This document shows, piece by piece, positions 1 through 50,387 of a stretch of DNA of 64,000 bases; position 1 is the first letter of the stretch, and each line of letters opens with the position of its first letter. Both the position numbers and the translations under genes were made by a program. Where the stretch lies: contig NZ_KB912879.1 in NCBI RefSeq assembly GCF_000383875.1, positions 124,001 to 188,000 on the forward strand, written 5' to 3'. The DNA is from Caldibacillus debilis DSM 16016. GTDB taxonomy: Bacteria; Bacillota; Bacilli; Bacillales; Caldibacillaceae. A model generated the notes under the pieces. It did no database searches and was not told the DNA's origin. It saw only the letters and a list, made by a program, of their open reading frames with translations.

Positions 1-508
1 CAAAGAATATTAAAAAGGCTGATGGAAAACCTTTGAGAACAGCCCCGCATTAACGCCCGATGCGGGGATTCTTGAACGCCCGGCCCAGCGGCTTCGCATC
101 GCCCGGGGGATGGGGTCTCCCGGCTTGGACTGGATTGGGAAAAAATGTCCAAGAGCGGCACAACGGGAGACGGCATCCTTTTCCGGCCCGATGTCATTGC
201 GGAGGGGCCTTCCTAGGCGGCTCCAAGCCGGCCTGCGCAAAGAAAGAAGATCGGCGGGTTGGGACCCGGTGCTGTAAATGTGCTGAATCCGCCGGCCTGC
301 GCAAAGGAAGATGAACGCCCCGGCCGGGACGACATAACCCCCGCCTTCCGTGCCTGCCGGTCTGCCCGCGGATGAAGGGAAAGTTCCCCGCCTTTCCAGG
401 AGGGGATATTGTTATGGAAGCGAAACGGAATTGCCGGATCCGGCGGCACGAACCGTTTCCGGGCGGACATCCGCAAGCGGGCTTTGAAGCGCTCCGATTT
501 TTTCCAAA
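1..508. other. No gene recognised
   Basis: GC-rich stretch in which all open frames look like shadows of high-GC sequence without a ribosome binding site. A perfect 8-bp hairpin (ccccgcat at 43-50, atgcgggg at 60-67) is present but has no T tract. Nothing else seen. Confidence 0.5.
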
Positions 509-7086: not shown

Positions 7087-7141
7087 TGCAGCCCGCTCCA
7101 TTTCCGCATAAAAAACCGAAGGCCGGAAAGCCGTTTCGGCG

Positions 7142-7240
7142 GCGGCCGATCCGGCCTTCCCAAAAACTTCCTTCGGGTTCCCGAGATTTTCATCCCCGGC
7201 GACCGATCCGGCCTTCCCGATGACCTCCTCCGGGCTCCCG
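7142..7240. repeat. Imperfect direct repeat, 57-bp offset
   Basis: Two copies of about 42 bp (7142-7183 and 7199-7240) share a 20-base block containing gatccggccttccc with one mismatch, then a similar cttcctycggg tail. They lie in the gap between asnO and the next gene, which holds nothing else except the terminator at 7261-7318. Confidence 0.6.
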
Positions 7241-11613: not shown

Positions 11614-11615
11614 CC

Positions 11616-11640
11616 TTAAACAATCCGTTCAGGGATATAC
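11616..11640 (-). repeat. Remnant copy of the phnE 3' end
   Basis: On the minus strand this encodes YIPERIV followed by a TAA stop, matching the true phnE end GYIRKRIV-stop at 11701-11677 (20 of 25 bases). The two copies are offset 61 bp. It is either a small duplication or what is left of a further phnE copy. Confidence 0.6.
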
Positions 11641-11676
11641 AGTCATTCCGCTTCCATATGTACCGGCATCTCACCC

Positions 11677-12474
11677 TCAAACAATCCGTTTCCGGATATA
11701 ACCCGAGAGCAAATCGATGACGGTCACAACGAGGATGATGACGAAGAGGATCATGCCCATGTCGTTCCAATTCCGGTTCGCCGAGGCGAAGTAAATCAAC
11801 GTCCCGATGCCACCCGCTCCCACATAACCGAGGACGGAGGAAGCGCGGACATCGATTTCGAAACGGTAAATGGCATAAGAAAGGAATTCCGGAATGATTT
11901 GCGGAAGGATTCCGTGAAACAGGATCTGAATTTTGTTCGCCCCGTTCGCTTCCATCGCCTCGACCACCTTCATGTCGATGGATTCGAGCACTTCCGAATA
12001 CAGCTTCCCGAGCATGCCGATGGAACCGACGGCAATGGCCAATACCCCGGCGAACGGCTTCGCTCCCACCGCCACGACGAACAATATGGCCAAAATCAGA
12101 TCGGGAAAAGCGCGGATCGCGCTCAAAATCCACTTGCCCGCCACCGTCAAAACCCGGTTCCTCGTCATGTTCCGGGCGGAAAGAAAGCCCAGCGGGACGG
12201 CAAGGACGGCGGCGGAAAGGGAACCGATGAAGGCGATAAACAGGGTTTCCATCATTTTGTCCATCACTTGGGGGAAGGTTTCCCAATTCGGGTCGAACAG
12301 CCTGGGGATGACCCGGTGAAAGTTATTGGCCATCCTTTCCCCCGCTTTGGCAAAATCGATTTCAATGCCGGTGAAGGTCCAGATGTAAATGGCGATGACA
12401 GCCAGGGCGATCAGCCAATTTCTGGCCCGCTTCGCAAAGGGCCGCTTCTTTTTAGGCGGTAACTGGAGCGCCAT
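11677..12474 (-). CDS. phnE: Phosphonate-type ABC permease, second PhnE
   Basis: Membrane subunit (265 aa) of a PhnDCE-type importer. A charged N-terminus precedes one helix (IALAVIAIYIWTF), a polar segment, then a five-helix core with the ATPase-docking EAA-like loop (EAMEANGANKIQILFHGILPQIIPEF) and the PhnE signature SVLGYVGAGGIGTLI. The ATG at 12474 overlaps the stop of the first phnE by one base, so they are co-translated. The paired phnE genes probably form a heterodimeric channel. The family imports phosphonates, phosphite or phosphate esters; here the PyrR-type leader and the nucleotidase partner argue for a nucleotide-related substrate (inference). Confidence 0.9.
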   Translation of the reverse strand: MALQLPPKKKRPFAKRARNWLIALAVIAIYIWTFTGIEIDFAKAGERMANNFHRVIPRLFDPNWETFPQVMDKMMETLFIAFIGSLSAAVLAVPLGFLSARNMTRNRVLTVAGKWILSAIRAFPDLILAILFVVAVGAKPFAGVLAIAVGSIGMLGKLYSEVLESIDMKVVEAMEANGANKIQILFHGILPQIIPEFLSYAIYRFEIDVRASSVLGYVGAGGIGTLIYFASANRNWNDMGMILFVIILVVTVIDLLSGYIRKRIV

Positions 12475-14062: not shown

Positions 14063-14100
14063 AGAAATTCCACCCCTGGTTTTCGATTTCATCCGTATGA

Positions 14101-14189
14101 ACCGTGAAAGCGGATTGGGCAAAAAATGCGCCGCATCTTGCTTCAGGTGCACCGTGGAAACGGATCGGGCGAAAAATGCGCCGCATCTT
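14101..14189 (-). repeat. 39-bp tandem repeat between phnD and phnC
   Basis: Copies 14101-14139 and 14151-14189 (50-bp offset) begin accgtg and share a 19-base block ending atgcgccgcatctt, differing at about five positions. They lie in the phnC 5' untranslated region, downstream of the phnD terminator. Confidence 0.75.
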
Positions 14190-15181: not shown

Positions 15182-15333
15182 CCTCAATTTCCCCCCTAAT
15201 TTTTTTCCACGGTTTTATTATGACCGAAAGCTCGCCATATTTCTACATCACTCTTAAAATTTTAATCTTTCGTCTCCCCCCTTTTTCCGTTCAGGCGTCC
15301 CTTCAACCGTCCCCGGAAGGCGCGGAAACTGTC

Positions 15334-15368
15334 AAAAAAGCGCCCTGCCGTTCTGACGGCAAGGCGCT
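15334..15368 (-). terminator. Attenuator terminator of the pyr leader
   Basis: 13-bp stem agcgccttgccgt/acggcagggcgct with one mismatch and a short loop, followed on the minus strand by six T residues. It is the termination arm of the PyrR element. Confidence 0.85.
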
Positions 15369-15473
15369 CCTTTCGTTTTCAGGGAAAAGGGGCGCATCAT
15401 GCCCTTTCCCGTTTTTCCTCTATCATTTACCTTGCCAGCCTCGCGGGACTGTTTTAAAGGTATGCCTTTCTTA
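15334..15473 (-). ncRNA. PyrR-regulated attenuator leader (pyr RNA element)
   Basis: Transcript leader with the full pyr architecture. The PyrR-binding anti-antiterminator lies at 15460-15430, with CCTT and AAGG at its ends and AGTCCCGCGAGGCT in the middle, matching the consensus ARUCCNGNGAGGYU. Its 3' part GGCAAGG is complementary to CCTTGCC in the 5' arm of the terminator at 15368-15334, which gives a mutually exclusive antiterminator. High UMP/UTP with PyrR would favour termination. Only phnD lies downstream. The distance from the promoter at 15508-15480 to the terminator suits a leader of about 140 nt. Confidence 0.88.
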
Positions 15474-22443: not shown

Positions 22444-22593
22444 GAAATCCGCGGACGCCTTTTCGGCACCCTCTCCTTTTCCCCATTCCCGTGAAGGAAA
22501 AAACGCAAAGGAAATCCTCTTTGCGGAACCTTTTCCCTTCCCTTTCCGTCTAATTGCAAACGGATGGGAAAACGAAGAAAAGCGGGTGGGAAA

Positions 22594-23859
22594 ATGAAAA
22601 AACTGCTTCTCCTTTTCATGGCCTTCGTTTTGGCGGGATGCGGGGAAACCGGTTCCGTCACAGAAAGGGATCTCGAAGAGGACGTCCAAAATTTGCCCGG
22701 TGATAACGGGAACGCTCAAAAACCGGCCGATCGTAACGGGGCCGTTCAAAAACTGGCCGCCGCCGTCAACGGGTTCGCCTTCGATCTTTATCCCCTTTTG
22801 CACGAATCCGCGGAAGGAAAAAATCTGTTTTTCTCGCCGGCGAGCATCCATCTGGCGCTGGCCATGACCTATAACGGGGCCGCCGACGGAACAAAGGAGG
22901 AAATGGCCGCCGTCCTGCATGCGGACGGGATGGAGACCGGGGAATTGAACGGGTCGTACGCCTCCTTCCTGAACATGGCGGAAGCCAAAAAGGGGAAAAA
23001 CGAACTCAAGCTGGCCAACTCGCTTTGGCTGAAGAAAGGATATCCTTTTTTGGAAATCTACAAAAAGACCGTCCGGGAAAATTACGGGGCATCTCTGCAC
23101 GAGGCGGATTTTGCCGATCCGCAAACCGGGGAAGCGATCAACCGTTGGGTGGAAGAAAACACGAAGGGAAAAATCAAAAATATGGTGAACCGCATCCCGC
23201 CCGGCACCGTCGCCTATTTGTTGAACGCCGTTTATTTCAACGGGAAATGGGCGTTTCCCTTCAACAAAGAACAGAATTTTGAAGACGATTTTTACGCCGG
23301 AGGAAAAAATCCGGTCACCGTCGAATACATGACCAACGAGCGGGAATATCCTTACTTTGAGAACGGGCAATTCCAGGCCGTCGAACTGCCGTACGCGGGG
23401 AAGGAATTTTCCCTGGCGGTCATCCTGCCGAAGGAGGGGGAATCCTTGGAAGAAATCGTCGGGCAGTTGACGCCGGAGGAATGGGAGAGATGGAGCCAAT
23501 CCTTCACCCCCAGGCGGGGAACCGTCACTTTGCCGAAATTCCAAATGGAATACGAAACCTCGTTGAATGAACCCCTTCAGCGCTTAGGGATGGAATCGGC
23601 CTTCAGCGGGCTGGCGGATTTTTCAAACATGGTGGAAAACGGCGGGGTTTCCATCGATGAAGTCAGGCACAAAAGCTACGTCCGGGTGGACGAAAAAGGG
23701 ACGGAAGCCGCCGCAGCCACCTCCGTGGCGATCGTAGAATCGGCCGCAGGCGACAGTTTTCACTTCAAAGCCGACCGCCCGTTCCTCTTTCTGATCCGGG
23801 AAAACCGTTCGGGCATGATCCTGTTTATCGGGGAACTGACGGAGCCCGGGGCAAAATGA
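22594..23859 (+). CDS. Serpin (serine protease inhibitor) lipoprotein
   Basis: Secreted, membrane-anchored serpin of 421 aa. The signal peptide ends in lipobox LAGC (Cys16), then an Asn/Asp linker, then the full serpin fold: NLFFSPASIHLALAMTYNGA, NSLWLKKG, LLNAVYFNGKWAFPF, VELPYAG and the C-terminal DRPFLFLIRENRSGMILFIGEL. The reactive loop hinge EKGTEAAAATS is canonical, so it should be inhibitory. Counting from P17 (E) puts P1-P1' at Ser-Ala after IVE, suggesting an elastase- or subtilisin-like target. The ATG at 22594 gives a proper signal peptide; an ATG at 22564 lacks a binding site. Serpins are uncommon in Bacillaceae and mostly found in thermophiles. Single gene. Confidence 0.92.
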   Translation: MKKLLLLFMAFVLAGCGETGSVTERDLEEDVQNLPGDNGNAQKPADRNGAVQKLAAAVNGFAFDLYPLLHESAEGKNLFFSPASIHLALAMTYNGAADGTKEEMAAVLHADGMETGELNGSYASFLNMAEAKKGKNELKLANSLWLKKGYPFLEIYKKTVRENYGASLHEADFADPQTGEAINRWVEENTKGKIKNMVNRIPPGTVAYLLNAVYFNGKWAFPFNKEQNFEDDFYAGGKNPVTVEYMTNEREYPYFENGQFQAVELPYAGKEFSLAVILPKEGESLEEIVGQLTPEEWERWSQSFTPRRGTVTLPKFQMEYETSLNEPLQRLGMESAFSGLADFSNMVENGGVSIDEVRHKSYVRVDEKGTEAAAATSVAIVESAAGDSFHFKADRPFLFLIRENRSGMILFIGELTEPGAK

Positions 23860-24221
23860 GCGGTTGTCCCTAGAGGGTTCCAGGATTCGAACCGGCAGAA
23901 TCAGGGGCAAAATGTGGGACGGGCCCCCCTCCGGGAACCGGGGAAACCGGCGCCTGCCCTGATCCCCGGATCGCCGCCGGGGAAACGAAGGGAAGCATCC
24001 GTCGTCGTTGACCGTCAAAGGTGGGCTTCGAAATTCCCAAGAATCCATGAATGTTTTTCTGCCCATTCCGCGCGAGATACGCGGAAGAGATCCCCGCAGA
24101 TTTGCCCTGTGCCATTTGAGCGCGACCGAAACCCTATTTTTCAGTGAAAATGCCGACGGGGCGGAAGGATTCACTTGCTCTGATTTTGAATGCGCCAACC
24201 GGGAGCGTGTGCGAGATGCCG
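23860..24221. other. No gene recognised
   Basis: Spacer after the serpin gene. Frames on both strands are short and have no ribosome binding sites. A tRNA-like GGTTCGAATCC on the minus strand at about 23880 has no cloverleaf around it. Confidence 0.45.
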
Positions 24222-28829: not shown

Positions 28830-29107
28830 CCCGGCAAACGCTCCGCTTCCCGCCCTCCTGCTAAAAACCCGAGCAGGAGGGGCGACCGATCCCGTCCTGC
28901 CGACGGCAAACGCCCCGCTTCCCCGCCCGCAGATCCGTTCACTCCCTGCTAAAAAAAGGGACAGAAAGGACCGGCCATCCCGTCCGGCAGGCCCCGCCGG
29001 CTTCCGCCGGACTTTCCCCCGAAACATGCTTCCCTGCCATTCCGTCCGTGTCGGACTAGGGAACTTGGCAAAACTTTCCCCCGAAGCATCCCCCCCTGCC
29101 GCTCCGT
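28830..29107. repeat. Cluster of degenerate direct repeats
   Basis: Two overlapping sets: cggcaaacgcyccgcttccc near 28833 and 28904, and a 35-bp element beginning actttcccccga (29011-29045 and 29073-29107, offset 62 bp). An imperfect hairpin ccctcctgct/agcaggaggg (28853-28881) is included. No gene is present. Confidence 0.55.
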
Positions 29108-40812: not shown

Positions 40813-40841
40813 CGCTCTCCTCAACTCGCGGTTTCTTGTTC
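40813..40841 (-). repeat. Duplicate of the pcp 3' end
   Basis: Reads EQETAS-stop on the minus strand and is identical in 28 of 29 bases to the true end of pcp at 40877-40905. Offset 64 bp. The 35 bp between copies is AT-rich (gagtaaaaaagagccaatttttt). Confidence 0.85.
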
Positions 40842-40884
40842 TATTTAAAGAGTAAAAAAGAGCCAATTTTTTGCAACGCTCTCC

Positions 40885-41505
40885 TCAACTCGCGGTTTCC
40901 TGTTCAGCGAGCACTTCGATCATCAAGACCACGGCCCTTTCCAAATCCGCCTGGGACCAGCTCGGAAGGGCAGGCTGCCGGACCGCCAGCTCGTGGGAGG
41001 CGGGCAAATGGACAAAACCGCCGAGCACGGGCCTGTTTTCGCTCTTTATCTTATGCAGCACCGAATACATAATATGGTTGCAAAGATACGTCCCGGCCGT
41101 ATTGGAAATTTGGGCGGGATATCCCTTTTCATTCAGCCGGTCGACCATCCGGCGGATCGGCAGCGTGGAAAAATAGGCCGCCGGGCCGTCCGGAACAATC
41201 GGTTCGTCCCGGACAAAAACGCCGCGATTATCCGGTCCCCCGTCCTTGCAATTGATGGCGACCCGCTCCGGGGTGATCTTCGTCCTTCCCGCCGCAAGAC
41301 CGAGGGAAAGGACGATATCCGGTTCGATCTCCTCCAGATGGCCCAAACAAACGTCGGCCGATTCGGAAAAATCCACGGGAAGGACCCGCCCAAAAATTTG
41401 CAGGCCGCCGATCCTTTTCCCGTCCAGATGTTTGACGATCGGTTCCGTCGGATTCACCGGGTGATCTTGGAACGGAACGAAACCGGTCAGTAACAGCTTT
41501 TTCAC
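40885..41505 (-). CDS. pcp: Pyrrolidone-carboxylate peptidase
   Basis: Cysteine peptidase of 206 aa that removes N-terminal pyroglutamate from peptides in the cytosol. Catalytic residues: Glu in the TPERVAINCKD region, Cys in SNTAGTYLCNHIMY and His in GFVHLPASHEL; the start LLLTGFVPFQDHPVNPTE is the family signature (FEPFGG-like). The GTG at 41505 is chosen because GGGGAG lies 8 nt upstream and the mature family start VKKLLLTGF begins there; the frame extends further without a site. The C-terminal six codons and stop are duplicated 64 bp downstream. Single gene. Confidence 0.93.
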   Translation of the reverse strand: MKKLLLTGFVPFQDHPVNPTEPIVKHLDGKRIGGLQIFGRVLPVDFSESADVCLGHLEEIEPDIVLSLGLAAGRTKITPERVAINCKDGGPDNRGVFVRDEPIVPDGPAAYFSTLPIRRMVDRLNEKGYPAQISNTAGTYLCNHIMYSVLHKIKSENRPVLGGFVHLPASHELAVRQPALPSWSQADLERAVVLMIEVLAEQETAS

Positions 41506-41591
41506 TTGAACCACTCCCCCGTATGATTTTCTCCAAGCGAAGCAGCCGCTTCTTTTCCCAAATTCACCGGCCTTTTTGCGCAAAAAGCGGA

Positions 41592-47720: not shown

Positions 47721-47948
47721 AGGACAATAAGTCCGGAATGAACGGTCAAGCCAGATGAAACGGACGATAAATTTCGGCCCGGGATAAAGGGACCCGTCTA
47801 ACGGAACGGACGATAAAACTTGGCCTCGGATGAACGGGCCCGCCCATGGGACGGGCGATAAAACTCCCTTTAGGATGTACGCCCCGATGAGACGGCCGAA
47901 AAACTTCGGCCCAGGGCAAACGGTCCGCCCAATGAAACGGGCGATAAA
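47721..47948. repeat. Six-copy degenerate repeat array, period 39-46 bp
   Basis: The core ACGGnCGATAAA recurs at 47760, 47806, 47851, 47892 (ACGGCCGAAAAA) and 47937, with a weaker copy at 47721 (aggacaataa), each followed by a partly conserved ctTcGGCC...GGATgaACGGgCC tail. Spacings are 39, 46, 45, 41 and 45. The period is not constant modulo 3, so it is not a coding repeat. The gap 47589-48256 holds no gene besides this array. Confidence 0.7.
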
Positions 47949-48193
47949 ACCAGGAAATATATCGGATGCGCACCCGGGTTTTCACTTCTTCGCCGGCTGT
48001 CCCGGCTTGACGGGACGGCTTTTTTTCGTCTTTTTCCGAAAATCGCCCGGCGGAAAATCCGCAAGACAAGCCGTGCGCCATCCGCGGGACAAAACCCCCC
48101 ACAGTCCCCATGCCTTCCCTCCGCCTAAAAATCCCGTTCGGAAAAAACCAATCTTCAACACATTCTTGTAAATTGAACCGACAATATTTGTGA

Positions 48194-48207: not shown

Positions 48208-48256
48208 TGATCGGGTTGAACCATTGTATGCTAAAGATAAGGGAGGTGGCTGCGGA

Positions 48257-50311
48257 TTGATCACATTGGATGACCGAAGTTTGCTGATCTTCAAAGAATT
48301 GCTCGTTTCCCCGCGCATCAAAGGGAAAGACTTGGAAAAAAAACTGAATCTCACAAGAAGGCAAATCAACTACAGCATCCAAAAAATCAACGACTGGCTT
48401 GCGGACAACAGCCTCCCGATCATCGAAAATCAACGGAATGTCGGATTTATCGTCGACCGTTCCATCATCGAAAGGGTACCGGAATTGCTCCAAATCAGAC
48501 CGGCGCTTGAATACATCCCGACGAAGAAGGAACGGATGAATCTCCTGTTGCTCATGATCCTGGCGCGCCGGGAGGAGCTTTCCCTGTTCCATCTGGCATC
48601 GGCATTAAAGGTGAGCAAAAATACGGTCTTACATGATTTGAACCTGATGGAAAAAAAGTTGAAAGAAAGACAGCTGGCATTAAAATACACGCGGCGCGAC
48701 GGTTACTTTATCGAAGGGAAAGAGATCGCGAAGCGCAAACTGATCGTCGACACCGTCAATAAAATTCTCCACATGCCGGAGGGATGGAAATGGATCAACG
48801 CGATCACCGGCATTACCGAAGAAGATCTCAACCGTCTGAAGCGGAAACTGGAGGTGGTTGAAAAACGGTTGAACAAGCGGTTTACGGACCAGCAGCTGAA
48901 CACGTTGGCCGTCATTTTCTTGATTCTTTTGCAACGGATGAAGGACGGAAAACACCCGGAACCTTTCGACATCAGCTATGTGGATATTTCGAACACAAAA
49001 GAATACCAGGCCGTGGAAGATTTGTTCGGCAACGATGAAAAACTGACCGAGCAAGACCGGCTCTATATCGCCTTGCATCTCCTTTCGTCGAGCGTCGTCT
49101 CCACGGAAATGGACCAAGTGAATTTTAAAGAAAAACTGTACGGCGCCATCGAACGGTTCGTCGCCAATTTCGAAAAAGTGGCCTGCGTGAATTTCCAAAG
49201 CAAGCACACCCTCTATCAAAAGCTTTACCAGCATTTAAAGCCGGCCTTTTACCGGGTGACCTATGAACTTTCGGTGGAAAACCCTTTGCTGGACTTGATC
49301 AAGCAGGAATACGGGGATATCCATCACTTGGTCAAACAGAGCATCGGCCCTTTGGAAAAGTTTTTCTCCGCGCCGATTCCGGAAGACGAACTCGCCTATT
49401 TGACTTTGCTGATCAAAAGTTCCCTGCAGCAGCAAGGCGATGATCTTTTGAAAAAGCCGAAAGCGATCGTCGTCTGCCCGAGCGGGATTTCCGTCTCAAA
49501 GCTCGTCTTCGAAGAATTAAAGCAAATGTTTCCCGACATCATCTTCCTCGACCATATTTCGGTGCGGGATTTTCCGGCCTTTGAACCGGATTACGATATC
49601 GTGTTTTCCACCGTGTTTTTAAATACAAAGAAAAAATTATTCCTGATTCCTCCCGTCTTCACGGACCAAGAAAAACAAAACCTGAAAATCGCCGTGGAGC
49701 AGGAACTGAAAAAGAAGAGCCCGGCGCTCATCAATTATGACCGGCTGATGAACATCATCGAAAAACATGCGTCGGTGAAAAACCCGGCTTCCCTGAAAGA
49801 AGAACTGAAATCCTTTTTCTACCACACCCAATTTCCGGATGAGAACTACGGGGAAGATTACAAGCCGAATCTGACCGATCTCGTTCCCGTCGAATTCATC
49901 CGGCTGCAGCAACCGGCAAGGGATTGGAAGGAAGCCATCCTTTTGGCCTCCCGGCCGCTTCTGCAAAATTCCATCATCGACATGAGCTACATCGATGCCA
50001 TGATCCGGGTCATCCAGGAGTACGGGACGTACATGATCGCGCCAAAGGTCGTCATCCCCCATGCCAAACCGGAGGACGGCGCCCACAAACTGTGCATGAG
50101 CGTGCTCACGCTGAAAAATGCGGTCCGTTTTCCGAAAAATATCTTCATTCAAGTGCTGATCGTCATTGCCGCCGTCGACCGGAAGTCCCATATCAAGGCA
50201 TTGACCCAGCTGTACGATTTACTGATGGATAAAAACAATGTGGAAACGATGATCGGAACGGACAACCCGATGGTGATCCACCGGCTTTTCCGGGAGTATT
50301 CCACCCATTGA
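48257..50311 (+). CDS. BglG/ManR-type PRD transcriptional activator with EIIB and EIIA modules
   Basis: Multidomain regulator of 684 aa: two N-terminal winged helix domains (about 1-75 and 90-150; KVSKNTVLHDLNLMEK), PRD1 and PRD2, a GatB-like EIIB domain with Cys in IVVCPSGISVSK, and a C-terminal EIIA domain with His in VVIPHAKPEDGAHK. PRD1 keeps only its second regulatory His (YIALHLL) and PRD2 only its first (LYQHLKPAFYR), so phosphorylation control is simplified. The TTG at 48257 lies 8 nt from GGAGGTG. It precedes the PTS operon on the same strand and should activate it when the PTS substrate is present. Its 3' end is copied 64 bp downstream. Confidence 0.9.
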   Translation: MITLDDRSLLIFKELLVSPRIKGKDLEKKLNLTRRQINYSIQKINDWLADNSLPIIENQRNVGFIVDRSIIERVPELLQIRPALEYIPTKKERMNLLLLMILARREELSLFHLASALKVSKNTVLHDLNLMEKKLKERQLALKYTRRDGYFIEGKEIAKRKLIVDTVNKILHMPEGWKWINAITGITEEDLNRLKRKLEVVEKRLNKRFTDQQLNTLAVIFLILLQRMKDGKHPEPFDISYVDISNTKEYQAVEDLFGNDEKLTEQDRLYIALHLLSSSVVSTEMDQVNFKEKLYGAIERFVANFEKVACVNFQSKHTLYQKLYQHLKPAFYRVTYELSVENPLLDLIKQEYGDIHHLVKQSIGPLEKFFSAPIPEDELAYLTLLIKSSLQQQGDDLLKKPKAIVVCPSGISVSKLVFEELKQMFPDIIFLDHISVRDFPAFEPDYDIVFSTVFLNTKKKLFLIPPVFTDQEKQNLKIAVEQELKKKSPALINYDRLMNIIEKHASVKNPASLKEELKSFFYHTQFPDENYGEDYKPNLTDLVPVEFIRLQQPARDWKEAILLASRPLLQNSIIDMSYIDAMIRVIQEYGTYMIAPKVVIPHAKPEDGAHKLCMSVLTLKNAVRFPKNIFIQVLIVIAAVDRKSHIKALTQLYDLLMDKNNVETMIGTDNPMVIHRLFREYSTH

Positions 50312-50359
50312 ATACCCATTTTCTTGCATCGGAAAGGTGAATGGCGGGGAAAGGATCCC

Positions 50360-50387
50360 GTATTCCGCCCATGGAATGCCCATATTC
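50360..50387 (+). repeat. Duplicate of the PRD regulator 3' end
   Basis: gtattccgcccatggaatgc and onward matches the gene end at 50296-50323 in 23-24 of 28 bases, offset 64 bp, with 36 bp between copies. Confidence 0.7.

Follow-up and report, generated by a model that had tools for sequence, protein, structure and literature searches.

The closest described counterpart of the structures reported here is the off-target spacer integration studied by Nivala and colleagues, reportedly in E. coli, where a spacer-sized insert is said to lie outside the array, within a duplicated target that is of repeat length and, by the same account, weakly repeat-like. Natural cases of off-target integration, such as those of Yersinia pestis and Sulfolobus islandicus, are to our knowledge few so far. 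Array-finding programs also return single-spacer calls, which are generally discounted as doubtful. Nivala, Shipman and Church (2018; as cited in PMC11788318 and PMC9456107) reported off-target integration in vivo, and the published in vivo events are tied, in an excerpt of PMC11788318, to over-expression of Cas1-Cas2. Off-target spacer integration is also known from test tubes, and an excerpt of PMC6895254 describes for the Cas1-Cas2 of S. thermophilus in vitro both a preference for guanine and a resemblance of off-target sites to the leader-repeat junction, as well as a molecular ruler that fixes the second integration site in S. thermophilus and in type I systems (PMC6895254).

This type of error is known mainly from the laboratory, and what is new in the genome of Caldibacillus debilis DSM 16016 is the number of such units and their natural origin; no report of such units across a natural genome was found among the matches listed in a search of the titles and abstract openings of the open-licence literature. 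With the case of Nivala and colleagues, as it is reported, the units described here share a spacer-sized insert outside the array, a target duplication of repeat length, and, possibly, weakly repeat-like targets. However, they are natural, apparently old, and present at about 50 detectable units per Mb, and they also differ in that two inserts match host genes, none of the 41 units tested lies inside a called gene, and stop codons are favoured. Compared with the canonical arrays of the same genome, the copies are of the same length and the inserts of similar length, but the 'repeat' differs from one ectopic unit to the next, and there is usually one insert. The anatomy is also that of doubtful single-spacer CRISPR-like calls, with two short repeats around one spacer; however, the number of units, the cut-off in copy length, and the two donors argue for real integration here. 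Judging from these sequence features, each unit is quite probably a scar from a single event in which a CRISPR Cas1-Cas2 integrase inserted a spacer off target.

Materials and Methods

The window is the whole stretch of 64,000 nt; together with 43 stretches of 20 kb from the same genome (3.06 Mb, 40 contigs), it makes up a sample of approximately 30% of that genome. CRISPR arrays and short-period tandem regions were masked before counting, and the main count also leaves out pairs longer than 33 nt, pairs lying within 12 bases of a CRISPR-repeat-like end motif, and stretch L155, which overlaps L154. Comparator genomes were counted by the same method (offsets 61-71, copies of up to 33 nt, arrays masked).

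The candidate set comprises 54 pairs, subsets of which were used in the individual tests: 41 for gene position (offset 60-72, copies of 20-33 nt, loci with gene calls, and with two rows of L038, a tandem duplication, dropped), 37 for targets and insert lengths (copies of 23-32 nt, score of at least 16), and 45 for the donor search and the mutual comparison of inserts. Genes were called with a simple purpose-written caller, which gave a coding fraction of 0.70 and missed some genes.

Results and Discussion

Repeat units in the window

The original prediction held that the end of pcp is repeated 64 bp away with one mismatch, and that the ends of a PRD regulator gene and of phnE are repeated in the same manner; all three repeats were recovered, at offsets of 64, 64, and 61, respectively (Table 1). 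In the pcp unit, the stop codon of the gene (40885-40887, minus strand) lies within one of the two copies. A fourth unit, overlooked in that prediction, has the same geometry as the pcp unit. Pairs with a score of at least 17 number 6 in the window over offsets 50-69 versus 3 over the 500 background offsets 500-999. When the whole pcp unit was used as a query, zero matches were found in phages or plasmids, and its matches to the rest of its own genome were weak (E of at least 1.6).

Table 1. Repeat units of the window and the genes that adjoin them (positions counted from the first letter of the window).
Feature	Position	Strand	Description
Fourth window unit, copy 1	227..253		24/27 identity to 291-317; offset 64
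Fourth window unit, insert	254..290		37 nt
Fourth window unit, copy 2	291..317		
phnE-like unit, downstream copy	11614..11639		22/26 identity to 11675-11700; offset 61
phnE-like unit, insert	11640..11674		35 nt
phnE-like unit, stop-codon copy	11675..11700		
ABC transporter permease (phnE in the original prediction)	11677..12474	-	Pfam PF00528
pcp unit, copy downstream of gene	40813..40841		29 nt target duplication; 28/29 identity to 40877-40905
pcp unit, insert	40842..40876		35 nt, A+T rich, spacer-like, unrepeated
pcp unit, stop-codon copy	40877..40905		
pcp, pyroglutamyl peptidase (Peptidase_C15)	40885..41583	-	Pfam PF01470, E 9.4e-64
PRD/EIIA transcription regulator gene	48224..50311	+	Pfam PF00874, PF00359
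PRD-regulator unit, copy with stop codon of regulator	50296..50323		24/28 identity to 50360-50387; offset 64
PRD-regulator unit, insert	50324..50359		36 nt
PRD-regulator unit, second copy	50360..50387		

Abundance in the sampled genome

The enrichment of direct repeats at this spacing was examined in the sample of approximately 30% of the genome, with other offsets as the control, and proved to be strong: isolated pairs at offsets 61-71 number 45, versus 1.63 expected from other offsets (890 unmasked kb). At a score of at least 15, offsets 61-69 hold 44 pairs versus 1.3 expected (Poisson p 3e-50, the control being other offsets of the same sequence), and at the looser threshold of at least 10 they hold 154 versus 60.1, an excess of 94 (888 kb). 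The proposal that a common mechanism, rather than chance, lies behind the repeats is strongly supported by these counts. Nothing was found in favour of chance or base composition, which the control at other offsets contradicts and to which we assign a negligible probability. Scaled up to the whole genome, the density of detectable units suggests roughly 150 clear units and 300 in total, both figures being extrapolations.

Anatomy of the units

The two copies of a unit agree over a fixed length. With the left edge as anchor, copy identity passes from 0.65 (position 29) through 0.47 (position 30) to 0.32 (position 31) and is 0.21-0.35 thereafter; with the right edge as anchor, the values at positions 29-31 are 0.65, 0.44, and 0.29, followed by 0.21-0.44 (34 pairs with a score of at least 18, four of which have copies of 36-46 nt). 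From either edge, identity falls to chance just past base 29-30. The left-anchored drop comes past base 29 for offsets 64-69 and past base 30 for offsets 61-63, and the right-anchored drop is less sharp for offsets 61-63.

This cut-off bears on replication slippage, one of the two mechanisms put forward in the original prediction, which would have left decayed tandem duplications with a unit of approximately 61-69 bp. True tandem repeats are present as well, and L038 6728-6850 looks like a tandem duplication of approximately 60 bp; however, similarity in the pairs ends at 29-30 bases and is absent through the rest of the 61-69 base unit, and slippage gives no reason to favour 61-69. The findings lend slippage no support, and we regard it as very unlikely.

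Inserts are 31-41 nt long, with a mean of 34.4 (37 units), and are mutually unrelated: among the 45 compared, no two share a stretch of more than 11 bases (9 for the reversed controls), and no two begin with the same five bases. The duplicated target keeps a constant length (29-30 bp), whereas the inserts differ in length by a few bases. The other mechanism of the original prediction, a small inserted unit, had the geometry right, but the 45 inserts are all different and it is the target duplication that stays constant. A shared inserted element was ruled out on the same ground. An insertion sequence or casposon was likewise rejected, as the inserts measure 31-41 nt and have no shared ends, and the duplications measure 29-30; the target duplication of casposons is 14-15 bp.

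Most of the events are probably old, given that the copies are on average 90% identical (45 pairs). Exact pairs number five, all with short copies of 16-25 nt. At two loci (L072 12322/12384/12448 and L088 2605/2668/2731), three copies stand in a row, the third matching in part, so that these loci (L072 12322-12478 and L088 2605-2763) possibly hold two inserts each, as would be expected if a new site were used again.

CRISPR arrays and the proposed mechanism

A pattern search found 64 copies of a 30-nt CRISPR repeat family in this genome, on contigs C4, C11, C18, and C39, and the length of the target duplication in the units equals the length of this repeat. The arrays have spacers of 34-41 nt and periods of 64-71 (mean 66.9 ± 1.3 in a sample of 52), versus 64.4 ± 2.4 nt for insert plus copy in the units (n = 48); the inserts are approximately 2.5 nt shorter than the array spacers, although the length ranges overlap. 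A type III-D effector operon (Csx1, Cas10, Cas5, Cas7, and Csx19) adjoins the C18 array, and Cas6 adjoins a C39 array. Profiles for Cas1, Cas2, and Cas4 (PF01867, PF09827, and PF01930) found none of the three in the assembly, which is not proof of their absence because long runs of N, which mark assembly gaps, interrupt two of the arrays. Since the assembly holds none of these genes, Cas1-Cas2 is an agent that we infer, and our claim concerns what an integrase left behind in the past and does not extend to a system that is still active.

In the off-target integration that we favour, the integrase would join a processed DNA fragment of 31-41 bp to both ends of an arbitrary chromosomal target of approximately 30 bp, by one staggered cut per strand, and gap filling would then duplicate the target. 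The outcome would be target-insert-target, where the canonical event gives repeat-spacer-repeat, and the distance of approximately 30 bp between the joining sites would be set by the integrase's own ruler, equal to the CRISPR repeat length of the genome. The duplication of approximately 30 bp, the unrelated inserts of spacer size, the 30-nt arrays, and the two host-derived inserts described below all fit off-target integration by Cas1-Cas2.

Donors of the inserts

Elsewhere in the sampled 30% or so of their own genome, 2 of the 45 inserts have a match of at least 38 bits, both to fragments of host genes. The insert of a unit in L076 copies L047 2179-2214 (33/36 bases), which is part of an 865-aa reading frame taken here to be a class II ribonucleotide reductase; the other, in a unit of L070, copies L029 3865-3895 (28/31, the likeness spanning the insert if one gap is allowed), in a frame that resembles a cob(I)alamin adenosyltransferase. 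The likeness ends at or near the insert borders, and the 20-base flanks match at 4 and 4 bases in one case and at 6 and 9 in the other. One more insert (L076 7200) agrees in part with L081, over 20/21 bases, and was left out of the donor count.

The plain rate of matches of at least 38 bits is not significant (2/45, versus 40/3000 random pieces and 13/1328 neighbouring pieces; array spacers gave 0/52). With confinement to the insert and near-full cover required, 2/45 compares with 22/20000 random 32-37-mers, but this control is support and not a test because the thresholds were fixed after both alignments had been seen. The ten control rows listed of these 22 all come from one piece of a CRISPR repeat. 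A donor search of three units against the whole genome yielded weak matches, the best being 84% over 31 bases (E 0.135).

Position relative to genes

None of the 41 units tested lies inside a called gene, versus 25.5 ± 3.0 by chance. Nine of them hold a stop codon, where 2.4 ± 1.5 are expected for a non-coding insert, and this number was reached in none of 500 simulations; start codons are held by 2 units versus 2.4 expected. The link to gene ends made in the original prediction stands: measured against the simulated control, the enrichment at stop codons is real, but 32/41 units are without a called stop codon. The target is therefore not defined by gene ends, although these are favoured or tolerated.

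Under off-target integration, units that hold a stop codon would persist because the gene, its stop codon restored by the duplication, stays intact; alternatively, the 3' ends of transcripts may be targeted. The excess of stop codons would also be in keeping with duplicated gene ends that selection maintains, perhaps in the role of a spare terminator or a 3' regulatory element. However, such selection sits badly with the many units that hold no called stop codon and with the divergence of the copies (mean identity 0.90 over 45 pairs), and we consider it extremely unlikely.

Target sequence

The 37 best targets, set in register with the CRISPR repeat, match it at 11.08 of 30 positions, versus 10.18 ± 0.31 for nearby sites (p 0.004, exploratory and uncorrected). 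When the register was shifted by -30 to +30, the match was best at 0, and a control with permuted repeats gives p 0.03, again exploratory and uncorrected. These values would fit a weak resemblance of the targets to the CRISPR repeat. A motif search of the 37 targets also gave a weak signal, with a total information of 4.95 from 60 starts; with 8 starts it was 4.70, versus 3.84 ± 0.31 and a maximum of 4.60 in 40 null sets. Target ends with an outward G number 24/54 versus 16/54 with an outward C, a difference that is weak when taken alone.

The units were also considered as canonical CRISPR arrays, a class that was rejected: each unit has its own repeat, and the match of the 37 targets to the CRISPR repeat is approximately 11/30 where chance gives 10.

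Other genomes

Among the comparators, G213 has 8 pairs, all at offsets 66-71, versus 1.3 expected at 61-71 (485 kb), and 7 under a stricter mask. Its arrays have a 30-nt repeat and periods mostly of 65-69. The copies reach 32 nt in 3/8 of its pairs, and a cut-off at 30 nt is not claimable in this genome because the pairs are so few. A DDE transposase gene (L171 4149-5558, in the locus L171 3682-6451) interrupts the cas1 of G213 and leaves it in two parts, with Cas4 and Cas3 genes upstream of the split cas1 in the same locus. For its inserts, a donor was found in 500 kb of G213 for 0/8 (E of at most 0.1).

G001 and G368 both have 30-nt arrays of the same repeat family as the genome studied here; G001, with an intact cas1 frame, has 1 pair in 398 kb, and G368 has 0 pairs in approximately 199 kb; Cas1 was not found in G368. 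G013 and G020, which are without this 30-nt repeat family, have 0 pairs each in approximately 199 kb. A 20-kb stretch of G014, outside the main comparator count, has 0 pairs at offsets 55-75, and a stretch of G023 that holds an array was excluded from the counts. The best 80 of 592 Cas1 loci served to ask whether duplication length tracks the repeat length of other CRISPR types. In these loci (1067 kb), there are 0 pairs of up to 33 nt outside arrays; without a length filter and at offsets 55-80, the same 80 loci give two non-canonical pairs, one in L202 (offset 60, 35 nt, score 15) and one in L204 (5599-5704), whose 36-nt copies are identical at offset 70 and lie next to a locus with a 33-nt array repeat call. 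The L204 pair may belong to another CRISPR type, or may be an off-target unit with a longer duplication. Among the sampled genomes, the phenomenon is clear only in the genome studied here and in G213, and the units are not tracked in every case by such arrays, by Cas1, or by the loss of Cas1.

The distribution among genomes also bears on the possibility that the units were made by some other integrase or transposition-like element, unrelated to CRISPR, that inserts 31-41 bp with a target duplication of approximately 30 bp. The missing Cas1 and Cas2 of the assembly, the slight departure of insert length from that of array spacers, and the best 80 of 592 Cas1 loci, which are without such units, are in its favour. 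However, the duplication has the length of the genome's own CRISPR repeat, the 45 inserts have no shared sequence and never use a 5-base start twice, and G213, the only other genome with several pairs, also has 30-nt arrays. We know of no such inserting element outside CRISPR, and this explanation appears unlikely.

Implications of off-target integration

Extending the reading of the units as Cas1-Cas2 scars, a broader proposal, to which we give somewhat less than even credence, is that a promiscuous CRISPR integrase was a past genome-wide mutator in this lineage. It would have left well over 100 inserts of spacer size (a number extrapolated from the 30% sampled), partly from host genes, with survival favoured at transcript 3' ends and with a few two-spacer 'new arrays', before its adaptation genes were lost or broken. 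If the units are indeed integration scars, these dozens to hundreds of them would form a natural record of the target choice of the integrase without CRISPR leaders. They would also show that adaptive immunity carries a cost that can be measured, and they might explain both where new arrays come from and why adaptation genes are lost. In addition, some single-spacer 'false CRISPR' calls may hold real biology.

Further repeats and features

The original prediction also listed two non-genic repeats of similar spacing. Both exist, but they belong to a different class, with longer copies and small gaps: the pair at 7140/7197 has 44-nt copies, a 13-nt gap, and an offset of 57, and the pair at 29011/29073 has 38-nt copies and a 24-nt gap, with further repeats in the region. 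Direct repeats of 42-44 nt at window positions 14098-14189 and 7140-7240 (offsets 50 and 57) lie beyond the 30-nt class and are tandem-duplication-like. At 47760-47950 of the window, a 59-nt sequence occurs in three diverged copies with spacings of 46 and 86. The end of a serpin gene (22564-23859) is repeated at an offset of 56 with 77% identity (window 23833-23914), and this repeat might belong to the class of approximately 30 nt, as a unit that has been shortened or has decayed.

Elsewhere in the genome studied here, tandem arrays with a 21-bp unit around GATGATGGACATTTTTT lie at L032 5644-5717 and 7438-7573, L033 19164-19201, L035 6750-6846, and L039 451-523; these may represent either a repeat family scattered over the genome or arrays with a regulatory role. 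G213 has long tandem arrays with a unit of 51-52 bp (L117 17580-17679 and 19553-19799, L122 7579-8231, and L123 15208-15501). Three units of the class described above lie within 430 bp at L076 6863-7294, apparently in an intergenic region, and one of them carries the ribonucleotide-reductase-like fragment. Finally, a PyrR binding site (RF00515) lies on the minus strand at 15332-15464 of the window and is its sole Rfam match at the gathering threshold.
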